A stretch of DNA of 35,915 nt, from the IMG/VR virus record IMGVR_UViG_3300015261_000161, positions 1 through 35,915 of that record; one strand, given 5' to 3'. The translations under genes were made by a program, and so were the position numbers. The notes below the pieces were generated by a model. The model searched no databases and was not told the DNA's origin. It worked only from the letters and a program-made list of their open reading frames with translations. Position 1 is the stretch's first letter. Each line of letters starts with the position of its first letter. Origin of the DNA: a virus. Below are positions 5,611-33,045 of this stretch, piece after piece.

Positions 5611-5641
5611 GATTTTCACGTTATGATATCGGTGACCATCT

Positions 5642-16013: not shown

Positions 16014-16604
16014 CTACATATTCGGATTTGGTTCACCAGTCGATTTCCCGTCATGACCGTTCGGGTGTTCATGCTCGTTATAGATAGCGCGTATTTCCTG
16101 CATGCTGCCTTTTTCATCCGATACGGTCGTGGCCGTAAGCCCGCCATTGATATTTACATCCCCCTCAATATGAACGCCTCCCGGTGAGACGACAGACAGC
16201 TTTCCACCACCAGGCAGACTGATGGCCATCGCGTTTTCGGTGGTGCTGTATGAGACGCCTGCACCGTTCCCGTAGCGCGTCACGTACTCATCCCCGCTTT
16301 CCCCGGCAGGCGTCTGGTCATCGGTGATAAGCCCGACAAGCACGACGCCGTTTCTCAGGTCACCGCCCTCGCTCAGTACCGTGGCGGGACAACCGACTGC
16401 CGGCACGCTCCAGGACTGCACCCCGGCATCTGCGCGGGTGTACCACGGCAGCCAGGCGGTAACATGTTCCGTGTTGTTCACCGGATCGGTACCGAACGTC
16501 ACCCGCACGCGCGGTGGCTTCAGCTGCACGCTGTGCACGGTGCCGCGCCTGATCATGTTGTTCATTCGCCGCCACATTTCAGCCAGCGTGTAATCAATGC
16601 TCAC
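16014..16604 (-). CDS. V: Baseplate spike protein gpV
   Basis: 196 residues. N-terminal OB-fold region (RRGTVHSVQLKPPRVRVTFG), then a beta-helix/needle portion with SPGGVHIEGDVNINGG, and a C-terminal tip YNEHEHPNGHDG. The HxH at the tip corresponds to the iron-binding apex of the P2 membrane-piercing spike. Starts immediately after U. In P2 V begins the baseplate operon V-W-J-I. Confidence 0.93.
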   Translation of the reverse strand: MSIDYTLAEMWRRMNNMIRRGTVHSVQLKPPRVRVTFGTDPVNNTEHVTAWLPWYTRADAGVQSWSVPAVGCPATVLSEGGDLRNGVVLVGLITDDQTPAGESGDEYVTRYGNGAGVSYSTTENAMAISLPGGGKLSVVSPGGVHIEGDVNINGGLTATTVSDEKGSMQEIRAIYNEHEHPNGHDGKSTGEPNPNM

Positions 16605-17131
16605 AGGTACGGCTCCAGAAAATTTTTCATGCTGTCATACGCGCCGCTGATTTTTTCGCTTTTGGTCTGCGTTTTCAGGGCGGAAAGGTCTTCTGTCGCG
16701 CCTGCAAACGTGGAGCTGTAATACTGAAGCGTCAGGGAGACTGTCTGGTGGGTGTGCTGCCCATTCAGGCCGAAGGTGTCCATCACCTGGCTGAGTTGCG
16801 TCAGCGCCCAGTACCCCATCACCCGACCGGTGCCGGTGACCAGCATGTATGGCATGTGCGTGTTCGCCTGCATGCGCAGCTGCTCCACCGGATCCATGCC
16901 TGAGGATGAAAATAAACCGTAGGATTCAAGGGCGCTGGTCAGCAGCGAATCGTTCACCAGCGCGGCATAGATTTCACCCTCAAACTGAATGACGGGTGCT
17001 TTTTTGCCGGTGTACTGCAGGCGTTCGGTTTCCCCGATACGCGGCTGCGCGGCCCAGTTCCAGCCCTCCTGCACCGTCAGGCGCTGATAGGCCAGCGTGC
17101 TGAGGGAAAAAATAAAGCTGCCCCACATCAT
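16601..17131 (-). CDS. U: Tail protein gpU, main 3' part, cut from its N terminus by the satellite
   Basis: 176 residues from Met-Met at 17131. Matches the P2 gpU family (MMWGSFIFSLSTLAYQ; SRVMGYW-like block TGTGRVMGYWALTQLSQV; C-terminal SLTLQYYSS). Its first two codons lie in the 11-bp repeat catcatcagcg; the same two Met codons continue a 27-residue N-terminal piece at the other satellite end. P2 gpU itself starts Met-Met, so this part could be functional if translated, but no Shine-Dalgarno precedes it here. gpU is a baseplate-hub component in P2-like tails. Its place next to V, rather than beside X, is unusual. Confidence 0.85.
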   Translation of the reverse strand: MMWGSFIFSLSTLAYQRLTVQEGWNWAAQPRIGETERLQYTGKKAPVIQFEGEIYAALVNDSLLTSALESYGLFSSSGMDPVEQLRMQANTHMPYMLVTGTGRVMGYWALTQLSQVMDTFGLNGQHTHQTVSLTLQYYSSTFAGATEDLSALKTQTKSEKISGAYDSMKNFLEPYL

Positions 17132-17136
17132 CAGCG
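17126..17136. repeat. Satellite attachment site, left copy
   Basis: catcatcagcg, identical to 27741-27751. On the minus strand it reads CGCTGATGATG, supplying the Leu-Met-Met codons of gpU. The neighbouring bases ccc are shared apart from one position. Confidence 0.8.
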
Positions 17137-17293
17137 TGTGTAAACTATCTGTAGGTTATTGAATAAATTGTTCATTCTTAGATGTGAAAAAATGGTTTAG
17201 TCCTGTTTTTGGTGAACCGCAAATCAAACAAATTCAGCAATTACCATATATGGCAATGCGTTACCGGACACCCTCACAAAGTTTACCGGAACC
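17137..17293. other. Satellite left end, non-coding
   Basis: 157 bases between the attachment site and the small terminase stop. AT-rich, no reading frame of note. The near-repeats cgttaccgga and gtttaccgga at about 17260-17290 could be integrase arm sites. Confidence 0.3.
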
Positions 17294-17809
17294 TTACGAT
17301 TGCTCACTCTGATACGTAGCAATGTATTCGGCGGCCAGCTCCGGCAGACGTTCACCAACACTGGCGGCGCGGTTCGACGCTTTGGCCACTTCGGCGCGGA
17401 TCCTTTCTATCTGGTAATCTGGCATCTGCGGGTAAGCCCGGTTGATGCTCAGCGGCAGACCGTCCAGAATTGAGGATATTTCGCCAGCCAGCCGGGAAAG
17501 CGTCCAGATGATAAACTCCGTGTCGATCACCTTCCCGTTCTTACGTTTGGTTTTCAGCTCCTGCATATCAGCCTGGGCGTTAGTCAGCCGGATCCGTGCC
17601 TTTAGCAGCTCCTCATCGTCAGCTTCCACGGGTTCAGGTTCCGCCTGGCGCAGCTGCGCATTCAGCAGACGGTTACGCAGGACGCTGGCCACATCGTAGA
17701 ACGCTTCCCGTCCTTCTCGCCGGGCTACCTCCACGCCCCATTTATCAAACGCGCTGACGCTGACGCCACAGCTTTTAGCCATCGTTTTTTTGTTAAGTAA
17801 ATGCTGCAT
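17294..17809 (-). CDS. Small terminase, Nu1-like (DUF1441-type)
   Basis: 171 residues. The N terminus LLNKKTMAKSCGVSVSAFDKWGV is a winged-helix DNA-binding region shared by lambda Nu1-type small terminases; a charged coiled coil (70-100) and a C-terminal region follow. In lambda, Nu1 binds cos and brings in the large terminase. Here the gene lies about 130 bp from a lambda-like cos, in the same relative orientation as in lambda, but no large terminase follows. It probably directs a helper's large terminase to satellite DNA. Confidence 0.82.
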   Translation of the reverse strand: MQHLLNKKTMAKSCGVSVSAFDKWGVEVARREGREAFYDVASVLRNRLLNAQLRQAEPEPVEADDEELLKARIRLTNAQADMQELKTKRKNGKVIDTEFIIWTLSRLAGEISSILDGLPLSINRAYPQMPDYQIERIRAEVAKASNRAASVGERLPELAAEYIATYQSEQS

Positions 17810-17935
17810 CTTTTTTCACACCTTCATAACGTTATTTTTTGTACAGGTTGTTGTATTAGAACGATATTATTTATTTAAATCAATGCGTTAACAGCAACAA
17901 CAAAACCACCACCCACCCTCCCAGAAAAAGGTCGT

Positions 17936-17970
17936 ATATAGTGAAAACCTGCGGGTTAGCGCCCCCGTGG
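17936..17970 (-). other. Lambda-like cos (cosN) site of the satellite
   Basis: Minus strand: GGGCGCTAACCC (17964-17953) followed by GCAGGTTTTCACTATATA. Lambda has GGGCGGCGACCT followed by CGCGGGTTTTCGCTATTT. Spacing, the GGTTTTC block and the CTAT segment agree, and the small terminase lies downstream as Nu1 does in lambda. The right side of the site is part of an inverted repeat, ttagcgcc/ggcgctaa (17956-17976). Cleavage position is inferred from lambda. Confidence 0.75.
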
Positions 17971-18016
17971 CGCTAAAATCTCTGGAAAGGACCCGTGAAA
18001 GTCAGCCAAGCGGCTG

Positions 18017-18041
18017 TAAAAAAGCCAGCACGAAGCTGGCT
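18017..18041 (-). terminator. Terminator after the AlpA-like gene
   Basis: Stem agccagc/gctggct (18023-18029 with 18035-18041), loop of five, followed on the minus strand by TTTTTT. It ends the capsid-decoration-regulator transcript before cos and the small terminase. Confidence 0.8.
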
Positions 18042-18065
18042 CTGGTTTTCGCTGGCGTGGCACGC

Positions 18066-18569
18066 TTATTCGTCTTCGCCGTCTTCAGGCTCGTAGCAGC
18101 CCCACGGACGCGGCGGCAGACGGTTAGCAGCTTCATGCAGGCGGTGTGTGCGGATGACGTTGCAGAATTTCAGCATATGTTTACGTTCTTCATCGTCCAG
18201 TTCCGGAGCGTTCCGGATGATGGTCGCCCACTCCTGAACTTCCATCCAGCGATTCACGTCTTTAGAGTGCCAGCCCTTGCGGCCCTCGCTGATAGTCAGG
18301 CGCTGCGGGAATGTGCCTTCTTTCTCCATACGCTCGAGCGTGGAACGTGACAGGCCTGTTTTTTTGATGGTTTGGGCCATTGAAAGGAAACGATACTGAC
18401 GAGTGGCCACACGCTCCTTCAGCGCGCGATAGTCGTCTGCGTTTTCCGGCAGTGTGCGGATCGCTTCGTCTGCCGCATCGGTGTTGATGTGCAAAATAAT
18501 AATTTCACGTAATTTGCTGATTTCGAAATCGGACAGCTGGCCCGCTTCTGCTCGTTCTAATAAATTCAT
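18066..18569 (-). CDS. AlpA-like DNA-binding protein in the capsid operon
   Basis: 167 residues from the ATG at 18569 (GAGAG site); an upstream TTG is weaker. The middle (about 64-115) is a MerR/AlpA-type helix-turn-helix: FLSMAQTIKKTGLSRSTLER, KEGTFPQRLTI, HSKDVNRWMEVQEW. It is thus a second AlpA-type regulator in the satellite, with extra N- and C-terminal helices and an acidic tail. It follows the capsid and decoration genes and precedes cos. It could control late satellite genes or act in DNA packaging; role unproven. Confidence 0.75.
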   Translation of the reverse strand: MNLLERAEAGQLSDFEISKLREIIILHINTDAADEAIRTLPENADDYRALKERVATRQYRFLSMAQTIKKTGLSRSTLERMEKEGTFPQRLTISEGRKGWHSKDVNRWMEVQEWATIIRNAPELDDEERKHMLKFCNVIRTHRLHEAANRLPPRPWGCYEPEDGEDE

Positions 18570-18627
18570 ATTCAATTCTCTCTCAAAACATCCAGGCCCG
18601 CTAAACCTCGCAGCCCAGACCGGTTAT

Positions 18628-18822
18628 TCACGGGAAATACTTATACAGCCGGAGCAATTCATCCATGGAAAGCTGTCCATTTTCAGCCCGGTATAAAATG
18701 TCTCTTACCATTTGAGCCTCATAACAATTCGGATCGATGTAGTAAGCGACATGTGAACGCAACTGGTTCAATACAAAATCAGGCGCTTTCACACTACGCG
18801 CGACGTCATCCCAGCATTTCAT
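18628..18822 (-). CDS. Small uncharacterised satellite protein
   Basis: 64 residues from the ATG at 18822 (AGGTG upstream); a GTG at 18864 would overlap the decoration gene. Helical, with no membrane segment and no recognised family (contains DDVARSVKAPDFVLNQLR and DELLRLYKYF). It lies between the decoration gene and the AlpA-like gene in the same transcript. Possibly a capsid-associated or packaging accessory factor; that is guesswork from position. Confidence 0.6.
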   Translation of the reverse strand: MKCWDDVARSVKAPDFVLNQLRSHVAYYIDPNCYEAQMVRDILYRAENGQLSMDELLRLYKYFP

Positions 18823-18835
18823 GACCGGCACCTGA

Positions 18836-19192
18836 TTAACCAAGTGGTTGGGCGGATAGAGCACTGCCAGCGAACGCCGCCAGCTTTTGTGCCTGGGTCA
18901 GTTCGGTCGTTGTGTCTTCGCTTGTGACGGTTGGCCAGTTGATAACATCGATGTTAAACGTGCCTGATTTGTACACCTGCGCGTTCACATCGCCAGTGGC
19001 ATCAATAAATGACGCGGTGAGATAAACCGCATCCCCCGACGCGGCACCGTCCCACACTTTGAAAAGTCCATGCGCAGCATCAACCATCAACGGCGTGTAG
19101 GCCGGAATCTCTCCCTGACCACCAGCGATAGTGACCATAGTCGTTGCTACCTGTTGCGTGCCGGAATAAAGCTGTAAATATGGGGTATCCAT
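18836..19192 (-). CDS. Satellite capsid decoration protein (lambda gpD-like)
   Basis: 118 residues from the ATG at 19192 behind GAGGTG, eight bases after the capsid stop. Lambda gpD family: PAYTPLMVD, VWDGAASGDAVYLTA, then NWPTVTSE and the C-terminal LAAFAGSALS. The helper copy (31398-31778) has the same blocks (LTPLMVS, AWDGTQGRAIGLTA, VAWPKMTQ, STAFAGTAIHLG). It stabilises the expanded shell. Gene order is capsid then decoration, the reverse of the helper. Confidence 0.88.
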   Translation of the reverse strand: MDTPYLQLYSGTQQVATTMVTIAGGQGEIPAYTPLMVDAAHGLFKVWDGAASGDAVYLTASFIDATGDVNAQVYKSGTFNIDVINWPTVTSEDTTTELTQAQKLAAFAGSALSAQPLG

Positions 19193-19199
19193 AGTCACC

Positions 19200-20234
19200 T
19201 CACTTAACGAATACGGTAACGAATTTATCAATACCTGCCGGGATCGGCTGAGGTGCAGATTGTGTCTGAACGTATTCAATCTCCGGATCGCCAGGCACAA
19301 CATAATTTTTGGGATAAACGCTGGATTCGGTCAGACCTTCGCGCGCAGCAGCTGGATCCTGAATAGCACCATAGGCCACCAGCCCTTTATGCGACGTATT
19401 CCCCATCACGATAGTCATCGGGTCGAGGTAATACTCCTCGGTACCGTCCTCGTTTTTGTACTTCCCGGTGTAGACGATGATTGCAACATCTCCCACATAG
19501 CCCTTATGACTGACAAACTCCCCAAGGTTCTGCAGGGTGGTTTCCAGACGGCTGTTAGAGCCGCGGCGGGTATCAAGAGCCTGCTTTACGGATTTGAAGG
19601 AGCGGTACAGCTGCCAGGCCTTTTTGCCGAAAATAATCACGTTGATCGGCGCCTGGGCCGCTTCCGCATAGTTTTCGAGGTCGTCATTCGGATCGTAGGT
19701 ATCTTTGTCCTGAGCAGACCACGCGGTACCGGAGGTCTGAGAGATACGATTTGCATCGCTCATTTTCCAGTCGATTTCGTATTTCTCGATGCCATCACCA
19801 GAAATGACGTTTTTTCCGGAGGTAATAGCCTGTACAGCCAGCCATTCTTTACGCGCATCAATAGCACCCTGCTGTTCGTCCAGCGCTTTTGCAATCAGCG
19901 CGTCACGGTTGCCTGACATATCGGAGATCACTTCGCCCGGCCAGCGTGGAACAAGTTTTGAAACGTCGATCTCTTTTTTAGGTTTGAGATAACCCGGCGT
20001 AAAGGATTTAGTCTCGTAGCCTTTGTCACGCATCACGCGGCTACCGACCATAGGCGAGCAGAACGCCGCCATAGGCACATCAGAGGAATCAATCAGATCC
20101 AGTGCAATATCACGCGCCGGAGAGGTCACTTCCTGACGAAAGAACAGGCTAAGGAAGAGATTTGTTTTGGGCTTGTCTGCCGTGGTGATCACGGAGATTA
20201 GTTCTGAGGGAGTGTAGGGAATAATTTCTGCCAC
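19200..20234 (-). CDS. Satellite major capsid protein (lambda gpE-like)
   Basis: 344 residues, starting with GTG at 20234, with a weak GTGAGA site. It is the same length as the helper capsid at 30303-31337 and shares blocks with it: FTPGYLKPKK/FKPGYTKPKH, DTYDP, LDTRRGSNSRLET/MDTRRGSNSQMET, VSHKGYVGDVA/VSHKGYYGDVA, REGLTESSVYPKN/KEGLTEGTRYPKN. Overall divergence is large, so this is not a recent copy. A complete HK97-fold shell protein in an element with no portal or protease suggests that the satellite builds its own shell on helper portals, perhaps of another size. Confidence 0.92.
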   Translation of the reverse strand: MAEIIPYTPSELISVITTADKPKTNLFLSLFFRQEVTSPARDIALDLIDSSDVPMAAFCSPMVGSRVMRDKGYETKSFTPGYLKPKKEIDVSKLVPRWPGEVISDMSGNRDALIAKALDEQQGAIDARKEWLAVQAITSGKNVISGDGIEKYEIDWKMSDANRISQTSGTAWSAQDKDTYDPNDDLENYAEAAQAPINVIIFGKKAWQLYRSFKSVKQALDTRRGSNSRLETTLQNLGEFVSHKGYVGDVAIIVYTGKYKNEDGTEEYYLDPMTIVMGNTSHKGLVAYGAIQDPAAAREGLTESSVYPKNYVVPGDPEIEYVQTQSAPQPIPAGIDKFVTVFVK

Positions 20235-20755
20235 TGTTTTTTCTCACAAGATTAAGAGTGGGGAAAGTCTAATCAGGGGCGGCGGGGGAGAAAATACATG
20301 TGCGGAGTTTCGCTTTGTCATAATGCATCAACGAGAAAACCGGCTGGGTCCGGGTGGGGTTCAGTGGTGAACAAAAAACACGCCATTTCACCACTGATAT
20401 TATTTTAGTCATTATTATTCAGATGGTTACACCAGTGGTGACACTGCAAAAAAATCAGAAAATGCGTTTTTTACCGCGAGTTTGCGCCCCGTGGTATCCA
20501 AGACCGCCAGGAGTACCTGCAAAAAAGGCGGCACCTGACCGCCATACGAATGACCCAGCGATTAAGGCATGGTCAGTATGTCACCGGAATTTAATTCCGG
20601 TTCTTTACTCATTGTTTTTATAGCAAAGCTCAAAATTGAGCTGATTAAGATCAGCTGCGCAATCAGATTCCAGCCGCTTGAAGGTATGGTCATATGACCA
20701 CACCCATACTTCTCCACCAAAGGTGGGAAAGTCTATCAATGGTCATAATGATGTT
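20235..20755 (-). promoter_or_regulatory. Control region upstream of the satellite capsid operon
   Basis: 521 bases with no convincing gene but many symmetric elements: tcagtggtga/tcaccactga (20361-20370 with 20388-20397), a further cagtggtga copy (20433-20441), accggaat/attccggt (20583-20601), agctgat/atcagct (20639-20656) and the 14-bp palindrome tggtcatatgacca (20687-20700). The motif tggtca recurs near 20571 and 20738. Likely holds the capsid-operon promoter and sites for the satellite's own regulator or a helper activator. Confidence 0.55.
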
Positions 20756-21100
20756 TTATTCGGTAATCGAGTCACTACTTTCTATTTCTGCCAGCCACCA
20801 GTCTATTGTCGTCTGCGTGTCTGCCAGATGATTCTTAACGCGCTCTTCGCATCTGGCGCCGCGTCGTATTTTGTCCAGCGCTTGCAAGCGAACCTCTTTA
20901 ATTGCGGGTTTAACAAAGTTCTCTTCAAACTCAGTCAGCCTGGATTGCTTCAGAAGCTTCTTATGCTCGGTTTCCACATAATCTTTCAGCCCCCTGATAT
21001 GTCCCTTAACTTCTTGCTCAGAATTCGAAAGCATACTATTGCTCTCGACTGCCACAATGATTTTATCAAGACGTTTTTTTATCTCTTTCAGACGGTGCAT
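20756..21100 (-). CDS. Uncharacterised helical/coiled-coil satellite protein
   Basis: 114 residues from ATG at 21100 (GGAG six bases upstream); an in-frame ATG at 21112 has no site. Strongly charged and helical throughout (MHRLKEIKKRLDKIIVAVES, then LKDYVETEHKKLLKQ), ending acidic. No family recognised. It lies between the origin and the capsid control region. A replication accessory, scaffold or size-determining protein would fit, but nothing in the sequence decides. Confidence 0.65.
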   Translation of the reverse strand: MHRLKEIKKRLDKIIVAVESNSMLSNSEQEVKGHIRGLKDYVETEHKKLLKQSRLTEFEENFVKPAIKEVRLQALDKIRRGARCEERVKNHLADTQTTIDWWLAEIESSDSITE

Positions 21101-21149
21101 GCCTTTCTCCATTAAGTAGCGAGGTTTAAAAATAAAAAATATACTTACA

Positions 21150-21380
21150 ACTGTTCACCTGTTCACCCTGGCACTTTTTTTCACTAAATTCATTGATTTA
21201 GAGGGTGATTAGTTTCGTTTTAAGTATTCACAACTGTTCACCCTAACCGTTCACCCTGTGACTAAAAAACAACCAAAAGGTGAACAGGTGAATAGTTGGT
21301 GAATAGTTTATAAATAAGTGTTCACCCCTTAATTCATTGTTATTAAATGACTTTTCAACAGGGTGAATAGTGGTGAACAC
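21150..21380. other. Iteron-type replication origin of the satellite
   Basis: About ten copies, in both orientations, of ggtgaacag/ctgttcacc and variants (ggtgaatag): 21150-21159, 21158-21168, 21233-21243, 21247-21256, 21279-21287, 21287-21295, 21298-21306, 21318-21328, 21361-21380. The P4 alpha protein binds iterons of this GGTGAACAG type. The cluster is AT-rich between units and lies immediately downstream of the helicase gene, which fits an origin served by that protein. Confidence 0.8.
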
Positions 21381-21388
21381 TTTATCTA

Positions 21389-23197
21389 TTACTTTTGATT
21401 TTCTCCGGTTGTATTGAGTGATTCATTGCATCTTGGTAACCACTCTTCTGAATCGTCATGAAGATTCACGTTTGAACGTAACCCCTGCTTGGTCTTCTTC
21501 TTCAGGTACTCCTTGCCGTACTCAGCCATAGCACCAGGCATGTCGGTACCGAACCGGGTGAGCGAAACGGGTTTGGTCAGCCCGTTGGATCGCATGTATT
21601 CCAGATAGGCATGATAGAGATAGCGCCGCGGGCTGAACGGCATGATCCCGGCATTGCCAATTAACATGCCATCGCACACGCTGGAGGCCATAAGGTAGCC
21701 GCAGAAGTCCACCAGCGAATCTCCTTCGCGCTTAATGGCCAGCGCCTCTTCTGATTTCTGCTGTTCATGTAAAAGCCGTTTGGCCTCGTTCTGGTCAGCA
21801 AAGCGCATAAGCAGATGCCGGATAATTACCGCCAGCTCCCCCTCTATCTTTTCGGCCAGCATCGGATCACGCTCGTTTTCCGGCACCACCTCGGTGAAGT
21901 TGAATATCACCCGGCGACGGGAGATCCCCCCGCTCCGGTCGCTGAACGACATAGCGTTGTTATTGACGGCCAGCACCACGGCGGGAATACGCGTTGAATA
22001 CGGCGGTTTGTGCTTGGGGTCGATAGAAACCTTATCCCCGCCCGTTATAGCCTTAATCCCGGCCCCGTCTCCTGCGTAGCGGGTCATGTCCGGCAGGATA
22101 ATCAGCGAATAACCCACCACCAGCGCCCTCTCACGCGGATTTTCCAGCGCGGCCATACTGGCCGATACTGTATTAGCCTTACCCGCCAGCATGGTGCAGA
22201 TCTCCGCCATCACACTTTTACCGCTACCGCCCGGCCCGGTGACTTCCAGAAACAGCTGCCAGTCATAACGGTTGGCCAGCACCATAAACAGCGCCGCCAG
22301 CACCCGATCCGTTTTGCGGTCACTGTTGGCCACTGAACGACGTAACCACTTCCAGAAGTTCGGCGCATGGTTCGCCAGCGTCTCACCTGCAGCGGGTTCG
22401 CTGAACGGCAAATCGCTGGCCACTATCAGCCAGTCTTCCGGATCATGGCTACGGAATTCGCCTTTCCGGGTATCAAAAACACCATTGCTGAATCCGATAA
22501 GATTTCGTGCCGTAACCCCCATAACCGGGAGGCCAAGTTTCATCGTGTCGACCGCTGATTTGATCGCGTTCTGCGAGTAGGCCACCTCCGCATCAATGAA
22601 AATCTGCGCCATTCGCCGCTGAAGCTCTTTATCCGTCAGCGGCAGCCACACCACACCGTTGTAATGGTGCACGGTGTCAGAATCTGCATGAATCGCCAGG
22701 TTACCGTCATAGTAAGCCAGTAGCACTTCCCCGCGCTGGCTGGCGCCCATCTGGTTAAGCGCCGGAGCTACCTTCTCTTTGTGCGTGCTGACAGGCAGTT
22801 TCACCACCACGCTGTCCCCGCGTTCGGCTTCAGCTTTCAGCCTAGTAAGGCGTGGTGTCCAGTCCTCCAGCAGTTCGAAGCTCTCAGAGTAAAAACGCGC
22901 ATCTTCCACGCCAGCCAGCGCCAGCCGCGTGGCAATTGCCGTTGTGTCTGCCTCGCTCAGTTCACCCGCGCGGTAAACACGGGCGTAACGCCGCCCGTTA
23001 TCTATGATTTGCAGGTCGTCCAGCTCCGCCAGCTGTCTTGGGCCAAGATAAACAGGAGGCGTGTTGTCGCCAGCGATCCTCTGCCCTGTACCCTCAGTCC
23101 AGTTTTTTGCGTGGTTGTAAGCATCGGCCCCGGCGAAGATGATCGCCTCTGTGAATTTGTCCTTCGGCAGTTTTTTCAGGTTCGGCGCGTTTTTCAT
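21389..23197 (-). CDS. P4/D5-type replicative helicase (primase-helicase family)
   Basis: 602 residues. Its ATG overlaps the preceding stop (ATGA). N-terminal ~190 residues unassigned; then a D5-N-like domain (VWLPLTDKELQRRMAQIF...) and a superfamily 3 helicase core with Walker A GPGGSGKS at 321-328, Walker B around SLIILPDM, sensor-1-like LAVNNN and the Arg-rich SGGISRRRVIF. Compared with P4 alpha (777 residues) I see no TOPRIM primase motif, so priming may come from the unassigned N terminus or from the host. It should recognise the adjacent iterons and unwind the satellite origin. Confidence 0.85.
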   Translation of the reverse strand: MKNAPNLKKLPKDKFTEAIIFAGADAYNHAKNWTEGTGQRIAGDNTPPVYLGPRQLAELDDLQIIDNGRRYARVYRAGELSEADTTAIATRLALAGVEDARFYSESFELLEDWTPRLTRLKAEAERGDSVVVKLPVSTHKEKVAPALNQMGASQRGEVLLAYYDGNLAIHADSDTVHHYNGVVWLPLTDKELQRRMAQIFIDAEVAYSQNAIKSAVDTMKLGLPVMGVTARNLIGFSNGVFDTRKGEFRSHDPEDWLIVASDLPFSEPAAGETLANHAPNFWKWLRRSVANSDRKTDRVLAALFMVLANRYDWQLFLEVTGPGGSGKSVMAEICTMLAGKANTVSASMAALENPRERALVVGYSLIILPDMTRYAGDGAGIKAITGGDKVSIDPKHKPPYSTRIPAVVLAVNNNAMSFSDRSGGISRRRVIFNFTEVVPENERDPMLAEKIEGELAVIIRHLLMRFADQNEAKRLLHEQQKSEEALAIKREGDSLVDFCGYLMASSVCDGMLIGNAGIMPFSPRRYLYHAYLEYMRSNGLTKPVSLTRFGTDMPGAMAEYGKEYLKKKTKQGLRSNVNLHDDSEEWLPRCNESLNTTGENQK

Positions 23198-23487
23198 TTC
23201 AGCCCCCTGTCCCAGCCCTCAGAACCGAAAGTGATCGGCAGTGAACTACGCAATTCAGCGATTTTTTTACGCGCGCCGGCAGCGGCTTCTGCCTGATATT
23301 CTTCCGTCTCGTCCGGAAGGTACGAAAATTCACGAAGCAGACGATCCGCTGTGGTGCGGCAGTCATGTTCATACCCGTCACGCAAAAAAGTGATCCGATG
23401 TTCGTCAATACGGGTGACAGTAATTTTTACGCCCCAGCTGTCAATCCAGCGGCTGTTTAACGTGATTTCTGGTTGTTCTTTTTTCAT
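23194..23487 (-). CDS. Small protein, DUF4222-like
   Basis: 97 residues, ATG with AGGTGAAG site; stop overlaps the helicase start by four bases. The part SWGVKITVTRIDEHRITFLR followed by DGYEHDC resembles the small DUF4222 proteins of lambdoid phages, with an added C-terminal helix. Translation is coupled to the helicase. Function unknown. Confidence 0.6.
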   Translation of the reverse strand: MKKEQPEITLNSRWIDSWGVKITVTRIDEHRITFLRDGYEHDCRTTADRLLREFSYLPDETEEYQAEAAAGARKKIAELRSSLPITFGSEGWDRGLK

Positions 23488-23574
23488 TTCTTCACCTGGC
23501 TAATTATTTCAATACGATTTCAGGACGAGCGCGGCCACCAGCAAAAAGCCGGAATAATTTTTTCAGCATGTTTT

Positions 23575-23781
23575 TTATTCCTTGTCGGTAGTGCTCATCG
23601 CCTCATAAATAGCCTTTCGGGCTACCGTATCGATATATGCAAAAAGCTCGAATGACAGTTGCAGGTCACCGTCTCCGGCAATGTAGCCACCAGCAGCAGC
23701 TAATGTGCTGATTTTTTCCAGTGCATCTTCATAACGCACTGCATCATTCAGAACCGTGTCGCAGGTTTTGACATCAGGCAT
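23575..23781 (-). CDS. Small uncharacterised satellite protein
   Basis: 68 residues, ATG with a strong AGGAGG site, overlapping the Icd-like gene by eight bases. Acidic and helical (MPDVKTCDTVLNDAVRYEDA). No family recognised; part of the early leftward operon. Confidence 0.65.
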   Translation of the reverse strand: MPDVKTCDTVLNDAVRYEDALEKISTLAAAGGYIAGDGDLQLSFELFAYIDTVARKAIYEAMSTTDKE

Positions 23782-24073
23782 GGCTTGCCTCCTGATGGAT
23801 ACGATTTTCCAGATAATTAAGTTCGGGAATTACGCCGCCGATGATGCTCCAGCATGACAGGGTTTCTCTCTCAGCCCAGCAGTAGTTCATCGGGCTATCG
23901 GTGCGGATTTTCGCGGCAAAGGTCAGCTCCCAGCCCTTAAATTCCGCGCGTGCGGCGGCTTCCGTTTCGGCTACGGTACGTAGTACGGTAGGTGCGGCTT
24001 TATCGCCAGTGTGTTTGCCCAAGAACAACCATGTAAATTTTGGGCGAGTTTGGGTATGCTGTATTTCAGCCAT
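23774..24073 (-). CDS. Icd/Ash-like satellite protein
   Basis: 99 residues from the ATG at 24073 (GGAGAAAA site); an in-frame extension runs to 24214 but lacks a site. The core KFTWLFLGKHTGDK, then AAARAEFKGWELTFAAKIR, resembles the Icd-like cell-division-inhibitor proteins common in P4-like satellites and prophages. First gene of the leftward replication operon, as in those elements. A second, decayed copy of its core lies at 24412-24500. Assignment by resemblance of the core only. Confidence 0.6.
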   Translation of the reverse strand: MAEIQHTQTRPKFTWLFLGKHTGDKAAPTVLRTVAETEAAARAEFKGWELTFAAKIRTDSPMNYCWAERETLSCWSIIGGVIPELNYLENRIHQEASHA

Positions 24074-24098
24074 AACTTTTTCTCCGGTGGTTTGGGGA

Positions 24099-24144
24099 GT
24101 TGTGGTCAGACGCCTCGGTAGTGTTCCACCACTCCGGGGCGTTG
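24099..24144 (-). ncRNA. Structured leader / possible P4-type regulatory RNA
   Basis: Between the promoter region and the Icd-like gene the minus strand can fold ACGCC-CGG-AGT against ACT-ACCG-AGGCGT, an imperfect long hairpin with loop ggaac. P4-like elements control their replication operon through an RNA from exactly this interval. Here only the fold and position support it. Confidence 0.35.
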
Positions 24145-24154
24145 TTTTTTTAGA

Positions 24155-24214
24155 TAACACCGTGTTAAGGTGTGTACCTATTGCAAAAAAAACATTACTC
24201 CAATAGGTACACAC
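24155..24214. promoter_or_regulatory. Divergent operator region with long inverted repeats
   Basis: Palindrome taacac-c-gtgtta (24155-24167) followed by two perfect 14-bp arms, gtgtgtacctattg (24170-24183) and caataggtacacac (24201-24214), separated by a 17-bp A-rich spacer. The right arm abuts the ATG of the ribbon-helix-helix gene. Symmetry and position suggest an autoregulated divergent switch. Confidence 0.75.
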
Positions 24215-24409
24215 ATGTCAATAACCATTAAACGCGATCGACAACCGAAAGGCACTGGGAAAGCGCCAGCTTTCCAAATCCGAATCCCTCCCGAGTTGAA
24301 GGAGCAATTCGAGAACGAAGCCCAAAAGGATGGGGTAAGCCTCGGTAACTGGTTGAAGGAGCTAGGTCGTGCAGAGTTAAAGCAGCGTGGCATTGAGCCA
24401 AAAGGCTGA
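24215..24409 (+). CDS. Ribbon-helix-helix (Arc/CopG-like) regulator
   Basis: 64 residues from ATG at 24215 (AGGT site seven bases upstream). After a basic N terminus, AFQIRIPPELKEQFENEAQK gives the strand-helix and DGVSLGNWLKELGRAEL the second helix of an RHH DNA-binding dimer. It is divergent from the Icd-like operon, and its leader has paired 14-bp repeats, fitting an autorepressor that also controls the leftward replication operon, as satellite master repressors do. Confidence 0.75.
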   Translation: MSITIKRDRQPKGTGKAPAFQIRIPPELKEQFENEAQKDGVSLGNWLKELGRAELKQRGIEPKG

Positions 24410-24411
24410 TT

Positions 24412-24500
24412 TTGACCATCAGCTTTACGCAGGACGGTCGGTACGGCTTTATCGCCCAGGCGACTGGCCAGAAACAGCCAAATGAATTTATTCAGGTAGT
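24412..24500 (-). pseudogene. Decayed second copy of the Icd-like core
   Basis: Minus strand encodes KFIWLFLASRLGDKAVPTVL, matching KFTWLFLGKHTGDKAAPTVL of the intact gene at 23774-24073. No start or full-length frame remains, and it runs into the end of the RHH gene. A tandem-duplication or recombination remnant. Confidence 0.6.
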
Positions 24501-24558
24501 GTGAATCCCGCCCTTGCAGCGATGTAGGGGCTAAATCATAGGCTGATTTACATCATGA

Positions 24559-24577
24559 AATGATTTTAATCATTTTC
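24559..24577 (+). promoter_or_regulatory. AT-rich inverted repeat before the WYL-like gene
   Basis: aaatgat/atcattt with a four-base centre, about 60 bp upstream of the GTG at 24635. Candidate operator or promoter element. Confidence 0.4.
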
Positions 24578-24634
24578 TAATAACCACACTGATATCATGC
24601 CAAATTAATTTCGCCACTATCAGGAGGTTACGGC

Positions 24635-25111
24635 GTGAGCACTATCCTAATATTCATTGTGATTGGTTTAATTTTCTATTTTGGTCTTAAAAAACTTTCA
24701 CCTCATGTTTCCGATGAGCATGACGAACACACCAGAAGAAGGAACGAATCAACCAGGCGTATCATCGAGGCTGAGCTAGAAAAAGCACGACTGTACGACG
24801 AGCAAAAAAAATACACTCCAAAGCCGACTCGAAAGCAACGACCGCCCAAAAAAGCACTCAATGGGTTGCCATTAAAAATTACTTATGAAGATGCGGGGGG
24901 AGATATAACGGTTAGAGATATAAGTGTCGTTGAGTACGATTCATTTAGCCAAAAAACATACGCCTGGTGTTATGCCCGTAATGACTGGCGCTCTTTTTTT
25001 ACATATAGAATGCTTGAAGTTATAGACAAGTCTACAGGTGAAGACATCAAAGATATTGACTCATTCTTTGATGAAGCGTTCAAACCTGTCACGAAGAAAG
25101 TAGCTCATTGA
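24635..25111 (+). CDS. Membrane-anchored protein with WYL-like domain
   Basis: 158 residues with a GTG start behind a near-perfect AGGAGG. Residues 3-19 (TILIFIVIGLIFYFGL) form a membrane anchor, then a charged coiled stretch, then a C-terminal domain with LPLKITYEDAGGDITVRDI, YAWCYARNDWRSF and DKSTGEDI. That pattern resembles the small beta-barrel WYL ligand-sensing domain. A hairpin terminator follows. Satellite cargo, perhaps a membrane sensor linked to defence; role inferred. Confidence 0.65.
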   Translation: MSTILIFIVIGLIFYFGLKKLSPHVSDEHDEHTRRRNESTRRIIEAELEKARLYDEQKKYTPKPTRKQRPPKKALNGLPLKITYEDAGGDITVRDISVVEYDSFSQKTYAWCYARNDWRSFFTYRMLEVIDKSTGEDIKDIDSFFDEAFKPVTKKVAH

Positions 25112-25182
25112 GTCAGAAGACTGATTTTGACCACCAGCTGCAAGCCTGGTCATCTTCTCCCGCTGACAAGCGTATCCGCACT

Positions 25183-25206
25183 GGCGGCCCAGCATGGCCG
25201 CCTTTA
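25183..25206 (+). terminator. Terminator after the WYL-like gene
   Basis: Perfect GC stem ggcggcc/ggccgcc (25183-25189 with 25196-25202), loop of six, then tttata. Confidence 0.7.
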
Positions 25207-25214
25207 TATACTCA

Positions 25215-26006
25215 TTATCCCCTGTAAGGTACATTAGAAAAATTTACAGCAACGTGCTGATACCCACTACTATCAAGTAAAAATCTAATTCCTTTTTTAA
25301 TTTGTTCTTTTTCTTTAACTGGACCAATGCAAACAGATTTAATCGGCAATTTTTCTTTTGCCTTAAATATCACATAAGGAATATAACCATTATGTGTAAC
25401 CCTAAAGTTTACTGCCGGGGCATTGTCTTTAGATGTGAATACAAAGCGATACTCCCGCTCCTCAGAAAAACCCTCATGCTTTATGAATGCAACAAGTCCT
25501 CTTAGTAACATTGCTCTATGAACATTTGCATTTCTGTTGCCATCAGTAAACGCTAATTCAAGATGTTCAATGGGTGAAAACCTCTCAATTACCTTCCATA
25601 TTTCCTCATAATTATTTTCACCCAAGTAATCCACCTCACCTCGCTGTATGTAATAGCCACAATCTTTCAATGCCGCATGTAAATAATCCTCATCAAATTC
25701 AATGCACACACCATTTTCTTTTCCATAGCCTCTCCACTGACTTAATTGATCGCCAACCTTTGAAAATGATATGCTATAGAAAGGAAGTACACTAACATCC
25801 TGCATTAGATTGATAAAGTCGGTCACTTTACCTCTTAATTCAGGCGTAACTCTATCACGATAGAAAGCCAACGCATTTAAATAGCACTTTAGACCATGAC
25901 GGAATTCCAGACGATCATTCAGAAAATATATATTGGTTGCCCATAATTCGCTTTTAGAAACAATGCCAAGTAATCCATGTAAATCAGTATAATGATAAAT
26001 GCTCAC
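25215..26006 (-). CDS. DUF2971 protein, probable accessory/defence cargo
   Basis: 263 residues with a GTG start (GAGG seven bases upstream). DUF2971 features: IYHYTDLHGLLGIVSKSELW, LNDRLEFRHG, then YSISFSKVGDQLSQWRGYG with GVCIEFD and, later, FSEEREYRFVF. The family is of unknown biochemistry and common on mobile elements. It lies where satellites carry variable cargo, and is AT-rich. An anti-phage role is plausible by location only. Confidence 0.8.
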   Translation of the reverse strand: MSIYHYTDLHGLLGIVSKSELWATNIYFLNDRLEFRHGLKCYLNALAFYRDRVTPELRGKVTDFINLMQDVSVLPFYSISFSKVGDQLSQWRGYGKENGVCIEFDEDYLHAALKDCGYYIQRGEVDYLGENNYEEIWKVIERFSPIEHLELAFTDGNRNANVHRAMLLRGLVAFIKHEGFSEEREYRFVFTSKDNAPAVNFRVTHNGYIPYVIFKAKEKLPIKSVCIGPVKEKEQIKKGIRFLLDSSGYQHVAVNFSNVPYRG

Positions 26007-26103
26007 TTAATATCCTCACTTCTTAATTATCTGATTTAAGTAGAATATCCAATAGTTGTTTGAACATCTATGTTTTTCTGAAGGGCTATAAAGCAAGCCA
26101 CAA

Positions 26104-26129
26104 GACACCCCGCCTCACTGCGGGGTGCC
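26104..26129 (-). terminator. Terminator after int-alpA
   Basis: Strong stem caccccgc/gcggggtg (26106-26113 with 26120-26127), loop ctcact, 14 bp after the alpA stop on the minus strand. The T tract is short. Confidence 0.6.
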
Positions 26130-26140
26130 TCGAGTGATGG

Positions 26141-26347
26141 TTAAAGTGAGTTTGCTTGCTCTCGCTGCTTATCCAGCCATGCCTCTACATCTTCTCGATA
26201 CCATGTATTCTTACCACCAATTTTGAAAGGCTGTGGAAAGGATTTATCTTTCCGTAAAAACTCAGAGAAGGTACTACGAGCACCAAAACGCAGGAAAGTC
26301 ATAACATCACTGGAAAACATGATTTTGTCGTTCATATAATCACTCAT
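26141..26347 (-). CDS. alpA: AlpA-family excision/transcription regulator
   Basis: 68 residues. ATG overlaps the int stop by eight bases. MerR-like HTH of the AlpA family, with FLRKDKSFPQPFKIGGKNTWYREDVEAWL as the core (read in two blocks around FPQPFKI and TWYREDVEAWL). In PICIs and P4-like elements AlpA-type proteins activate the satellite programme or integrase/excision. The int-alpA order and coupling is the Gram-negative PICI hallmark. Confidence 0.88.
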   Translation of the reverse strand: MSDYMNDKIMFSSDVMTFLRFGARSTFSEFLRKDKSFPQPFKIGGKNTWYREDVEAWLDKQREQANSL

Positions 26348-27572
26348 TAACTAACTTGAGGCCCTTATGACCATTTTGTCTATTGATAATCCCGCAGCGA
26401 GCTGAATCCATAAAATCACCAACCCACTGCATCATTTTTCTACGTTGCTCTATATATCTTGAGCGGTTGTACACGTTTCTTATGGCATTACCATTTTTGT
26501 GAGCGAGGGCTGCCTCGATCACATCAGGATTAAATCCTTCCTCATTTAACAAAGTGCTCCACATAGCTCGAAATCCGTGCGGAGTAACTTTCCCTGAATA
26601 AGGGCTATCAGAAATCACTCCTGAAACAGAGCGTCGAGGGATCGGCTTCCCAGCTATTCTGGATGGGAACACATATTTACCATGTTTGATTTTTTGCATC
26701 TCTTTGATGATTGCTAACGCCTGAGATGAAAGCGGCACCACATGTTCACATTTGGTTTTAATCCTCGTTGGTGGGATTTTCCATATACTGGCATTGAGAT
26801 CAAATTCACTCCATTCAGCCTCAAAAGCTTCTCTAGGCCTTACCATTGTCAGCATTAAAAACAATAGTGCTTTTTTATATCTTTCTGGAGCCTCGGCCTC
26901 CCACCAACTGATAAATCCCGGCAATTCATCTATCGGTAATGCTGGAAGTGATTTCACACGTTCAGCATTGAATACATTTTTAATTTTCTGCAATGGGTTT
27001 ATTTTTATAATTCCGCTATTAACTGCGTAATTCATTATTTCGTTAAGAGTGGAAATCAATCGATGCAGGGTGTTATTTCTGTCTTCATATTTTTTCAGAA
27101 GTGAAATAACAATCGGTGCATTAATGTCATGGATAGACATCTCCCCAAATAGTGGAATAACCTGTTTATTTATAATGCGTTCAATGTTCTCGATAGTTTT
27201 TGCGCGTAGGTTTCCACCTTTTTTAAACGCTACCCAGTTTCCTACAACCGTTTTCATGGTTTGCGCATACAGCTTTTCCCTATCTTCACGTAATTTCTTC
27301 TTTTCCTCACAAGGATCTATGCCCCGCGCTCGCAGGCGTTTCAGCTCATCACGGCGTTCGCGCGCCTCGGACAGGGTGAAATCAGGATAGCGGCCAATGG
27401 TATAAGTCTGACGTTTTCCGGTGACCGGGTGTGTATATCGATAAACCCAAGACTTACCACCAACCGCCGATACATTGAGTACCAGGCCTGAATAGTCATA
27501 GAGGGAGTAAGGCTTGCCGGTGCCCTTTGCTCCCTTAACGTCCGCCACGGTAAGCGATTTCATTACAGCCAT
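26340..27572 (-). CDS. int: Tyrosine integrase of the satellite (P4-like)
   Basis: 410 residues from the ATG at 27572 (AGGAG, eight bases); the frame extends upstream without support. N-terminal DUF4102-type arm-binding domain (SLYDYSGLVLNVS, KSWVYRYTHPVTGKRQTYTIG), then core-binding and catalytic domains: Arg in MVRPREAFEAEW, Lys near PTRIKTK, HGFRAMWSTLL and the nucleophile Tyr in IRNVYNRSRY. It begins about 170 bp from the 11-bp repeat. It should recombine the repeat within phage gene U, an unusual target for this family, which normally uses tRNA or housekeeping genes. Confidence 0.92.
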   Translation of the reverse strand: MAVMKSLTVADVKGAKGTGKPYSLYDYSGLVLNVSAVGGKSWVYRYTHPVTGKRQTYTIGRYPDFTLSEARERRDELKRLRARGIDPCEEKKKLREDREKLYAQTMKTVVGNWVAFKKGGNLRAKTIENIERIINKQVIPLFGEMSIHDINAPIVISLLKKYEDRNNTLHRLISTLNEIMNYAVNSGIIKINPLQKIKNVFNAERVKSLPALPIDELPGFISWWEAEAPERYKKALLFLMLTMVRPREAFEAEWSEFDLNASIWKIPPTRIKTKCEHVVPLSSQALAIIKEMQKIKHGKYVFPSRIAGKPIPRRSVSGVISDSPYSGKVTPHGFRAMWSTLLNEEGFNPDVIEAALAHKNGNAIRNVYNRSRYIEQRRKMMQWVGDFMDSARCGIINRQNGHKGLKLVNE

Positions 27573-27701
27573 TACATTACTCCTGGGGTTATTTTTTAGG
27601 CCTTTTTTTAGTCCATTAAGGGAGGTATTAACCGTTAAAATCCGTAAATCACAGAACAATCTGGACAAGCCGAATGAAATAACCCGCTGAAAATGAACAA
27701 A

Positions 27702-27827
27702 TTAGACACATAGGAACGAATCAATCCTAAAGATTACCCTCATCATCAGCGGTGGCAGTTCTTCCAGCCAGTTTTCCGCCTGTTCGCGCACATTAGCGGA
27801 AATGACGGATAAGGGGTTAAAACTCAC
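27702..27827 (-). pseudogene. U: gpU 5' fragment cut off by the satellite
   Basis: Begins with GTG at 27827, inside the end of the upstream gene and behind AAGGAG at good spacing. It reads VSFNPLSVISANVREQAENW then LEELPPL and Met-Met, where the 11-bp repeat occurs; beyond that the satellite adds 12 unrelated residues and a TAA at 27704. Joined at the repeat, the frame runs on into gpU (MMWGSFIFSL at 17131). This is the main evidence that the element sits inside U. Confidence 0.8.
27741..27751. repeat. Satellite attachment site, right copy
   Basis: catcatcagcg, identical to 17126-17136, next to the integrase gene. Site-specific recombination between the copies would remove about 10.6 kb and restore an open gpU frame of about 203 residues. 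Confidence 0.8.
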
Positions 27828-30302: not shown

Positions 30303-31337
30303 TTATTTAAGGGATACCACCACAAAGGCGTCCGGATCCGGCAGCACCATCGCCGGCGCGGACTGGGTCATGGTCTGCTCAATGGACGGATCGCCTTGCT
30401 GGATCCAGTTTTTCGGGTAGCGGGTGCCTTCGGTCAGCCCTTCTTTAAACGCATCGGCATCGACAATGGCACCATAGGTACGAAAACCCCTGACCTGGGT
30501 ATTACCCAGGATCAGCGTGTTATCCGGCAGGTAGCGGGTTTTGGATTTCGTCTCAGGATCGATGTACTGGCCCTTATAGACCACCACCGCCACGTCGCCG
30601 TAGTAGCCCTTATGGCTCACCACCGCGCCCAGGTCCTTCAGGGCGGTTTCCATCTGGCTGTTCGAACCGCGGCGGGTGTCCATTTTTTCGCGGAACAGCT
30701 TAAAGCTGTTCAGCAGGGTCCAGGTCTTCCCGTCCATCACCATGATATCCACCGCGCCGGAGGCATAATCCGCCCAGGCATCGATGTCCGCGGCCGGATC
30801 GTAAGTGTCGCGGTCCTGTTTCGACCAGGCCGTACCATCTGTCTGTGCAATGTTGTTTGACGCGCTGCGCTGCATATCAATTTCGTAGGTCGGGAAGTTA
30901 TCGCTGGTCAGGGTGTACTTGCCGTACAGGACCGCCTGCACCGCCTGAAATTCTTCCAGCTGCTTGATGGCCATGTCCTCATCCTGCAGGTTCTGCATGA
31001 TGATGGCATCGCGGCGATCGGCCAGGCTCATCGGCTCGTCCGGATCTTCCCCCGGCAGGCGCTTAATCAGCTGCCCCGGATTCACAGTGTGCTTCGGCTT
31101 CGTATAACCCGGTTTGAAAGACCAGGTTTTGCCGCCGCGGGTATGGTCAACCTTGCCGGTGACCAGCGGCGCGCAGTACACGGCCATGGCCACATCGCCA
31201 GGGATTTTATCCAGGAACACTTCTTCGGTCTGGAAGGTGTAGGTTTCCCGGAAGAACAGCTTCAGGAACAGCGGATCGAATTTGAACGTCTGGGTGGTGA
31301 CCGCCAGCAGTTCGCGCATGGTGTAAAAATCGCTCAT
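30303..31337 (-). CDS. E: Major capsid protein (lambda gpE-like) of the prophage
   Basis: 344 residues, lambda E family with HK97 fold. FKPGYTKPKHTV, DTYDPAADID, MDTRRGSNSQMET and VSHKGYYGDVA are the conserved blocks. Flanked by terminators on both sides, suggesting separate control of shell protein. Paralogous to the satellite capsid at 19200-20234. Confidence 0.94.
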   Translation of the reverse strand: MSDFYTMRELLAVTTQTFKFDPLFLKLFFRETYTFQTEEVFLDKIPGDVAMAVYCAPLVTGKVDHTRGGKTWSFKPGYTKPKHTVNPGQLIKRLPGEDPDEPMSLADRRDAIIMQNLQDEDMAIKQLEEFQAVQAVLYGKYTLTSDNFPTYEIDMQRSASNNIAQTDGTAWSKQDRDTYDPAADIDAWADYASGAVDIMVMDGKTWTLLNSFKLFREKMDTRRGSNSQMETALKDLGAVVSHKGYYGDVAVVVYKGQYIDPETKSKTRYLPDNTLILGNTQVRGFRTYGAIVDADAFKEGLTEGTRYPKNWIQQGDPSIEQTMTQSAPAMVLPDPDAFVVVSLK

Positions 31338-31397: not shown

Positions 31398-31778
31398 TTA
31401 ACCGAGGTGAATGGCGGTACCGGCAAAGGCGGTGCTTTTCTCCGCCTCCGTCAGCTCACGCTCTGAGGCTTTGGCCTCGCCACCGTCCGCCCCGCCGTCG
31501 CTCTGTGTCATTTTCGGCCAGGCCACCTGCGAGGCGCGGAATCCGCCTTTGATGTAATAACTGACCACATCGCCGGCAACAGCGGCGATGGCGGTTGCCG
31601 TTAAGCCGATAGCCCTGCCCTGCGTGCCGTCCCAGGCCGCCAGCGTGCCGTCGGCAGAGACCATCAGCGGCGTCAGCCGCTCAGCGTTCATGTCGGCAGA
31701 CAAAATGCCGGTGGTGCTCACCGGCAGGTCGGGGCCAAGAATAAAATCATCATGTACAAAAATCTGTACTTCACTCAT
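31398..31778 (-). CDS. D: Head decoration protein (lambda gpD-like)
   Basis: 126 residues, ATG with AAAGGAG site. Lambda D family: LTPLMVSADGTLAAWDG, then SYYIKGGFRASQVAWPKM. Trimeric cap that stabilises the expanded shell. Overlaps the protease gene by eight bases. Same family as the satellite gene at 18836-19192. Confidence 0.9.
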   Translation of the reverse strand: MSEVQIFVHDDFILGPDLPVSTTGILSADMNAERLTPLMVSADGTLAAWDGTQGRAIGLTATAIAAVAGDVVSYYIKGGFRASQVAWPKMTQSDGGADGGEAKASERELTEAEKSTAFAGTAIHLG

Positions 31779-32163
31779 GGACGGCTCCTTTCAGTCGCGC
31801 AGCGTTTTTCATCAGTCCCGACAGGCGGGCTTCCTTTGCTGAGGGTTTTCCCGCGCCGGTGTCAACCGGTTCGGGTGACTCATGCTGCATCAGCGTATCC
31901 AGCGCCGTTTCGGTTCGCGCCTGCGCGGCTACGGGCGAGGCCAGCAGAATGGTGCGGGCGGCATCGGCGCTCATGCCCGGCGTGGCGGCCAGCGCCTGCG
32001 CCAGCGCTTCGCGGCCTTTCGCTTCATCACAGGACAGAATGCCCATAATGCGCTCGCGCTCCTGCGCGGCTGCCATTTCAGCGGTGTTTACCTGGTGATC
32101 GGCGGTGGCAACTGGCACAACATTTTCTGCAGTTGCCTGGGCCATTGTGTTTTCCGGCTTCAT
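31771..32163 (-). CDS. nu3: Internal scaffold protein Nu3-like, in frame inside C
   Basis: 130 residues from an in-frame ATG at 32163 within the protease gene. AAGGAGG lies five bases upstream, better than that of C itself. In lambda, Nu3 is the scaffold made from the 3' end of gene C in the same frame. The segment is Ala/Gln/Glu-rich and helical (ATADHQVNTAEMAAAQERER), as scaffolds are. Confidence 0.8.
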   Translation of the reverse strand: MKPENTMAQATAENVVPVATADHQVNTAEMAAAQERERIMGILSCDEAKGREALAQALAATPGMSADAARTILLASPVAAQARTETALDTLMQHESPEPVDTGAGKPSAKEARLSGLMKNAARLKGAVHE

Positions 32164-33045
32164 CAGCCCTCCTTTTTTCTTAAGAAACTCGGACATGGTG
32201 GTCACCGCATCCGCGTAATTAATTACTTCATCCGCCAGGCCCAGCCTGACCGCCTCTTCGCCGTCAAATGTTCTGGCCTCTGTGCCCAGTACAGTCTTCA
32301 GCGACAGGCCTGTGTTATCACTGACCTTCTGCGCAAACATCATGCGCGTCTCATCGATCCGTGCCTGAATGTCTTTGCGTACCTCGTCCGGCAGCGCCTC
32401 ATAAGGGTTGCCGTCCACCTTGTGAGAACCTGCGTGTATAAGCGTGATTTCCACCCCTTCATCCTGGAGTTTCTTTTCAACACTACGGTGAGCCACCACC
32501 ACGCCGACAGAGCCCACCGTACCGGTCTGGGTGATCAGCCGGCGGCTGCAGGCCGATGCCAGCAGATAGGCCGCTGACGTTGCCGTATCCCCCGACAGCG
32601 CCCAGACAGGCTTAACTTTCCCCATGCGGGCAATGAGGTCTGCCGTATCAAACGCCCCCGACACCTCCCCTCCGGGAGAGTCGATATCCAGCAGCACCCC
32701 TTTCACGTCCGGATCCCCGATGGCCATATTTATGCGGGCGACAATGCCGTCGTAACCTGTCATGCCGCACAGCGGCTTCATATAGCCGAACTTGTGGACC
32801 AGCGTGCCGGTGACGCCGATCACCGCAATGCCCTGCTCCACCCGGTAAGGCCGCGCTTCCCGCTCAGGGCTGCTGCTCCAGGCTCCCTGCGGCGAAAGTC
32901 CCTCTGCCGCAGCGGCGTCCTTCGCCGCCGTCGCCCCCAGCCGTTCGCCCAGCGTGTTGAAAAACCCCTGTGCCCAGCCGGGATCCATCATTAACGGCTG
33001 GTTAAGGACGCGGGCGGCGAGGTGCGGATAATTAGTCCAGCTCAT
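31771..33045 (-). CDS. C: Head maturation protease gpC (S49 family)
   Basis: 424 residues from the ATG at 33045 (GAGGAAA site), overlapping the portal gene by 14 bp; a longer open frame to 33204 is a shadow. S49 (SppA-like) protease: IDSPGGEVSGAFDTADLI, the catalytic Ser in TATSAAYLLAS, and the Lys in HAGSHKVDGNPY. Cleaves scaffold and capsid-associated protein in the prohead. The C terminus is the scaffold, also made alone as Nu3. Confidence 0.9.
   Translation of the reverse strand: MSWTNYPHLAARVLNQPLMMDPGWAQGFFNTLGERLGATAAKDAAAAEGLSPQGAWSSSPEREARPYRVEQGIAVIGVTGTLVHKFGYMKPLCGMTGYDGIVARINMAIGDPDVKGVLLDIDSPGGEVSGAFDTADLIARMGKVKPVWALSGDTATSAAYLLASACSRRLITQTGTVGSVGVVVAHRSVEKKLQDEGVEITLIHAGSHKVDGNPYEALPDEVRKDIQARIDETRMMFAQKVSDNTGLSLKTVLGTEARTFDGEEAVRLGLADEVINYADAVTTMSEFLKKKGGLMKPENTMAQATAENVVPVATADHQVNTAEMAAAQERERIMGILSCDEAKGREALAQALAATPGMSADAARTILLASPVAAQARTETALDTLMQHESPEPVDTGAGKPSAKEARLSGLMKNAARLKGAVHE

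Follow-up and report, generated by a model that had tools for sequence, protein, structure and literature searches.

A capsid-encoding satellite within the gpU tail gene of its putative helper prophage

IMG/VR virus record IMGVR_UViG_3300015261_000161 (35,915 nucleotides, analyzed over its whole length and called the window here) contains a phage satellite that, as judged from its sequence, is inserted into a prophage's gpU tail gene rather than merely adjoining that prophage. We interpret the satellite as a Gram-negative phage-inducible chromosomal island (GN-PICI) nested in a late gene of its own helper, and hold this reading, including the packaging and shell scheme proposed below, to be about 70% probable. 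The configuration is that of helper-embedded PICIs (HE-PICIs); what is new is that it occurs with another integrase lineage and in a target gene that is not named in the available text of the published survey (PMC10111431).

The element is flanked by 11-bp copies of CATCATCAGCG (Table 1). Its removal in silico yields a single open gpU gene, MSFNPLSVISANVREQAENWLEELPPLMMWGSF..., whose product reads MSFNPLS...LPPLMM/WGSF in one frame, and gpU is uninterrupted over all 203 residues in four IMG/VR contigs (L009–L012; 96, 85, 85 and 78% identity). The N-terminal part is also kept by prophages in two genomes. Given the repeats, the rejoined frame and the intact gpU of relatives, integration separates gpU from its beginning. 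The P2-type domain left behind retains an ATG, with no clear ribosome site ahead of it on inspection of the sequence. The satellite thus has the features of a helper-embedded element, in that it lies within a helper late gene, is co-oriented with it, and interrupts a gene that is intact in relatives. The helper is a hybrid, combining lambda-type head genes (TerL, portal, protease, decoration, capsid, FI-like, and connectors) with P2-type contractile tail genes (gpU, spike, baseplate, fibre, and sheath).

Read on the minus strand from 27740, the satellite encodes integrase, AlpA, a DUF2971 protein, a ribbon-helix-helix protein on the opposite strand, an Icd/repressor-like protein, a DUF4222 protein and a primase-helicase, followed by a small gene, capsid, decoration, an AlpA-like helix-turn-helix (HTH) protein, cos, and small terminase (TerS). 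This fits the Integration-Bro-Replication-Late order described for GN-PICIs (PMC10111431, available text), as do an int gene beside alpA (the AlpA match being weak), a unidirectional core, a primase, a length within 10–20 kb, specific att repeats, and a capsid gene in the late zone. A preliminary description of the window had held that the satellite lacks portal, protease, scaffold, and large terminase (TerL) genes, and family scans and marker tblastn found none of these between int (26340) and TerS (17294). An inverted repeat at 21148–21298 (20-nt arms, 95%), directly downstream of the primase at the position of GN-PICI origins, may be a replication origin. An Rfam search of the satellite found no P4-type immunity RNA. 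The DUF2971 protein (25215–26006, minus strand), in the variable zone, shows weak matches to the candidate defence family PDC-S31.

The same description noted capsid genes of equal length at 19200–20234 and 30303–31337 and a corresponding pair of decoration proteins. Both capsid genes are real; their products, each of 344 amino acids, are 44% identical over 342 residues, and the decoration proteins are 41% identical over 91. With ATG 19192 as its most likely start, the satellite decoration gene would encode 118 amino acids rather than 155. The satellite proteins had been called paralogous to those of the prophage. Although the two capsids are homologous, that label is misleading, as the one encoded by the satellite comes from a lineage of satellite capsids that stands apart. 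In a tree of 14 satellite and 12 phage capsids, the satellite proteins form one clade, cleanly separate from the phage proteins (100/99) and marked by 21 diagnostic positions. The window's satellite capsid is 96% identical to that of a sister satellite, L003, and 50–58% identical to other GN-PICI capsids. That it is 44% identical to its own helper's capsid and 43% to lambda's, together with the satellite-only clade, led us to reject a recent copy of the helper gene. None of the 411 phage records that match it exceeds 60% identity, and among the matches listed identity is at most 44.8%. Strong purifying selection is evident from dN/dS against L003 (capsid 0.042, decoration 0.115, TerS 0.151), and by this sequence measure selection maintains the satellite capsid. 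The nearest solved structure is 3BQW, followed by lambda gpE (7VI9). PDB 3BQW is titled a prophage capsid protein; as read from alignments, its sequence matches the capsid of the satellite EcCICFT073.

How far does the element depart from known satellites? The preliminary description proposed an intermediate strategy in which only shell subunits are brought. Part of this stands, since shell, TerS, and cos are the satellite's own and the rest must come from the helper. However, the strategy is not new, because EcCICFT073, 11capE, and most reference GN-PICIs already carry capsid genes. The available text of the 2023 survey gives a capsid in 21 of 29 reference GN-PICIs (PMC10111431), and capsid and decoration genes occur together in EcCICFT073 (c1499 and c1500; PMC6092414) and in 11capE, in both of which we also saw them directly in the sequence. 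The search for the late block in other satellites that the description had suggested recovered an exact capsid-decoration-HTH-TerS block in E. coli KE47 (L006); this block is the usual, already known late zone of GN-PICIs.

HE-PICIs, as reported in 2023, comprise 491 cases at 14 sites, with one integrase clade, a doubled attP motif and 11capE of E. coli NRG857c as prototype (PMC10111431, available text). The gene content and order of 11capE resemble those of our satellite, and both carry capsid and decoration genes. In contrast to HE-PICIs, the satellite has an integrase of another clade (only ~24% identical), lacks the doubled TGTATTGC attP motif, and targets a P2-type gpU gene in a helper that joins a lambda-type head to a contractile tail. 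EcCICFT073 shares the gene order, capsid and decoration genes, and a lambda-type cos upstream of a packaging-specificity gene; it differs in its chromosomal site and in encoding Rpp in place of its own TerS, and its capsid is 51% identical to the satellite's. By description only, SaPIbov5 is similar in that a helper-capsid homologue, Ccm, is all it brings, although its host is Gram-positive and its helper prolate-headed (PMC8569155). A capsid-forming PICI, the E. coli fis-site element L004, likewise has its own capsid and a primase 79% identical to the satellite's, but also encodes an HK97-type portal, protease, TerL, TerS, and connectors; lacking portal, protease, and TerL, the satellite falls outside that group, which is defined by its own portal, protease, capsid, TerL, and TerS. 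With P4 it shares membership in the wider P4/tRNA-Pro/tmRNA integrase group. Pfam and PHROG scans of the satellite found no homologues of Sid, Psu, or delta, and with its capsid gene it does not have the make-up of a P4-like element.

A capsid profile recovered 171 related viral contigs, 80 of which were kept, and three genome loci; since this survey is skewed towards close relatives and towards E. coli, its counts are not population frequencies. Decoration follows capsid in all 88 satellite loci, and an HTH or FI-like gene comes next in 87. TerS lies within 3.5 kb in 54 of the 88 and cosQ is present in 72; 32 loci lie within a helper capsid gene and 7 within a portal gene. No further head genes were found inside the surveyed elements at these 88 loci. 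A head-gene flag in L062 was set aside, as no integrase was found there and a default boundary had been used. Scanning genome contigs with the single capsid protein gave no match; an alignment-based scan found satellites in Superficieibacter, Kluyvera, and Kosakonia. The sister satellite L003 shares the whole late block (5178–6594; about 90–96% identity), but its helicase is of the RepA type and its integrase is unrelated, which suggests free exchange of modules around a late block that remains stable. In E. coli A33 (L005, NZ_CP028742.1), capsid-carrying satellites lie in tandem, at ~10.5 kb per unit, with many genes annotated as frameshifted.

The packaging signals point to the helper. Upstream of TerS the satellite carries cosQ GGGTCCTTTCC and the cosN region CGGGGGCGCTAACCCGCAGGTTT, which differs from lambda cosN, GGGCGGCGACCT. 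The lambda sequence had only chance-level matches in the window, and the actual cos was found by comparison with sister satellites. The 23-nt cosN stretch is common to the satellite, L003, and the cos of a helper relative, G394, whose TerL, capsid, and intact gpU are 92, 97, and 85% identical to the helper's. Among 2.9 million IMG/VR viral contigs other than the window itself, it occurs in L003 and G394 only. The satellite and G394 TerS proteins are 38% identical, and the downstream cosB sequence differs too. EcCICFT073 similarly shares the cosN of its helper but uses a different cosB with Rpp (PMC6092414, PMC6739421). Most simply, helper TerL would be loaded by satellite TerS together with the satellite's own cosB, and would cut the common cosN. 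From the shared cosN we infer that the satellite is induced and mobilised by the helper phage.

In a tree of 36 integrases, the satellite protein pairs with its nearest relative, the integrase of L135 (100/100; 50% identity). The two fall among tRNA-Pro, tmRNA, and P4 integrases and are split (99/99) from those of 11capE, the portal-site elements, the fis element, and EcCICFT073. The satellite integrase is therefore outside the clade by which the available text of the survey defines HE-PICIs (PMC10111431). The doubled attP motif tgTGTATTGCantgTGTATTGCa, recovered in 11capE as a positive control with 0 and 1 mismatches, was not found flanking the satellite, with 7 of 16 as the best value in the window. 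A scan of viral contigs for the integrase found no relative. With its integrase end, the L135 element cleanly joins a SEN34-like contractile-tailed prophage 19 bp inside the gene that follows the head protease; on the other side ~8 kb of phage genes (capsid and tail) are missing, so that an att pair is not demonstrable. The satellite-like element occupies L135 1–18660 and includes a second integrase-like gene at 7074–7949. Since the nearest integrase relative also lies in a prophage late gene, the tree suggests that late-gene targeting probably arose twice, although the group has two members only and long branches weaken its exact placement.

Table 1. Coordinates of the satellite, its insertion site, and helper head genes in the window
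Feature	Position	Strand	Remarks
Satellite element, 10.6 kb	17126..27740	-	int, alpA, replication and late genes co-oriented with helper late genes
11-bp att repeat CATCATCAGCG, distal (terS) side	17126..17136	.	
11-bp att repeat CATCATCAGCG, int side	27741..27751	.	
5′ part of helper gpU gene	27752..27827	-	GTG start overlapping stop of upstream head-closure gene
Remainder of helper gpU (Phage_P2_GpU domain)	16601..17136	-	Pfam E=5.8e-24
Tyrosine integrase	26340..27572	-	Pfam, tree; ATG 27572, preceded by AGGAG, is the likely start; frame open to 27668
AlpA-type excisionase/activator	26141..26347	-	weak HTH_17/AlpA match; adjoins int as in GN-PICIs
DUF2971 protein, accessory	25215..26006	-	weak match to candidate defence family
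Small ribbon-helix-helix (HicB/Arc-like) protein	24170..24409	+	
Icd/phrog_1743 transcriptional repressor-like protein	23774..24214	-	
DUF4222 protein	23194..23487	-	
Primase-helicase (D5/DUF5906)	21389..23197	-	77% identical to 11capE primase
Satellite major capsid protein (Phage_cap_E)	19200..20234	-	Pfam E=6.7e-48
Satellite decoration protein (gpD-like)	18836..19192	-	
Late-zone AlpA-like HTH protein	18066..18569	-	Pfam 2.5e-9; position matches HTH of 11capE
cosQ GGGTCCTTTCC	17984..17994	-	
cosN region CGGGGGCGCTAACCCGCAGGTTT	17945..17967	-	common to helper type
Small terminase TerS (Nu1)	17294..17809	-	Pfam 5.7e-26, phrog_57
Helper major capsid protein	30303..31337	-	PHROG major head 1e-143
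Helper decoration protein	31398..31778	-	
Helper head protease with scaffold region	31771..33204	-	
Helper portal	33032..34621	-	
Helper large terminase	34851..35915	-	cut by window edge

We propose the following life cycle. In the integrated state, gpU would lack its first ~27 codons and ribosome site, which should make normal helper tails impossible until induction leads the satellite to excise. Once free, the satellite would replicate with its own primase; its TerS would bind its own cosB and recruit helper TerL, which would cut the cosN common to both. The helper would supply portal, protease, and scaffold for the heads that satellite DNA then enters; all or part of the shell would consist of satellite capsid and decoration proteins, and helper connectors and tails would finish the particle. 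The shell function is putative; because the satellite has neither portal nor scaffold, co-assembly of its shell proteins on those of the helper is most likely. Several points weigh against this interpretation. A single gpU-inserted satellite was found. The helper's own terS and cos lie beyond the window edge, and the cos comparison uses the relative G394. Moreover, the EcCICFT073 capsid and decoration genes can be deleted without loss of interference with lambda, and phage-sized heads take up its DNA (PMC6092414, PMC6739421); satellite shell proteins may therefore be dispensable.

Might the shell proteins serve another purpose? One doubtful but possible role is to switch head size, the satellite capsid, with decoration, mixing into helper procapsids to make smaller shells that fit 10.6 kb and exclude helper DNA. 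Ccm of SaPIbov5, itself a capsid homologue, occupies pentamers and alters shell geometry (PMC8569155), PmCI172 combines small heads with a capsid homologue (PMC6092414), and the conserved satellite lineage with its diagnostic positions would suit such a role; against it, EcCICFT073, which encodes a capsid of the same clade, goes into phage-sized heads with lambda (PMC6739421). It is unlikely that the genes are a backup, that is, captured late genes kept as spares for helper functions, as the available text of PMC10111431 proposes. HE-PICIs embedded in cap_E do carry their own capsid, but here the interrupted gene is gpU and no capsid backup is needed; nor do the near-equal identities to the helper and lambda capsids and the satellite-only clade favour a spare.

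Less likely still is a role of the satellite capsid as a poison of helper heads during their assembly. GN-PICIs interfere with their helpers (PMC6092414), and a subunit that has diverged could have a dominant-negative effect, yet deleting capsid or decoration from EcCICFT073 did not relieve its interference with lambda (PMC6092414), which is explained by Rpp (PMC6739421). Finally, there may be no satellite at all: the window comes as one contig out of a collection of viral sequences, and either the prophage gained a second capsid cluster by recombination or the contig was assembled as a chimera. We consider this highly improbable, as the cluster comes with its own integrase, AlpA, primase, and cos, exact att repeats restore gpU, and L003 has the same late block outside this prophage.

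Two other loci lie in the helper. An AraC-type regulator (15558–16013, plus strand), on the opposite strand within the tail operon, is likely a moron. After the tail genes, a PtuA-type ATPase and an HNH protein (2309–4778, minus strand) form a Septu-like candidate defence pair (PADLOC PtuA1 2e-154, PDC-M01A/B).

Tentatively, and at somewhat less than even odds, we suggest that late-gene nesting evolved independently in a second integrase lineage, represented by the window and L135 and directed at contractile-tailed prophages, and that this class of satellites has an old, dedicated lineage of shell proteins with which satellite particles are made on the portals and scaffolds of helpers. The satellite-only capsid clade speaks against a spare copy of a helper gene, and the question of why GN-PICIs retain a capsid gene becomes testable, with one such structure solved (3BQW) and 21 positions that mark the clade. 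Because satellite and helper have a private cosN in common, sequence is enough to identify the helper. Should another, unrelated lineage of integrases also target helper late genes, nesting would be a repeatable strategy and not the oddity of one lineage, which predicts that it brings a benefit: control over the timing of helper tail completion.
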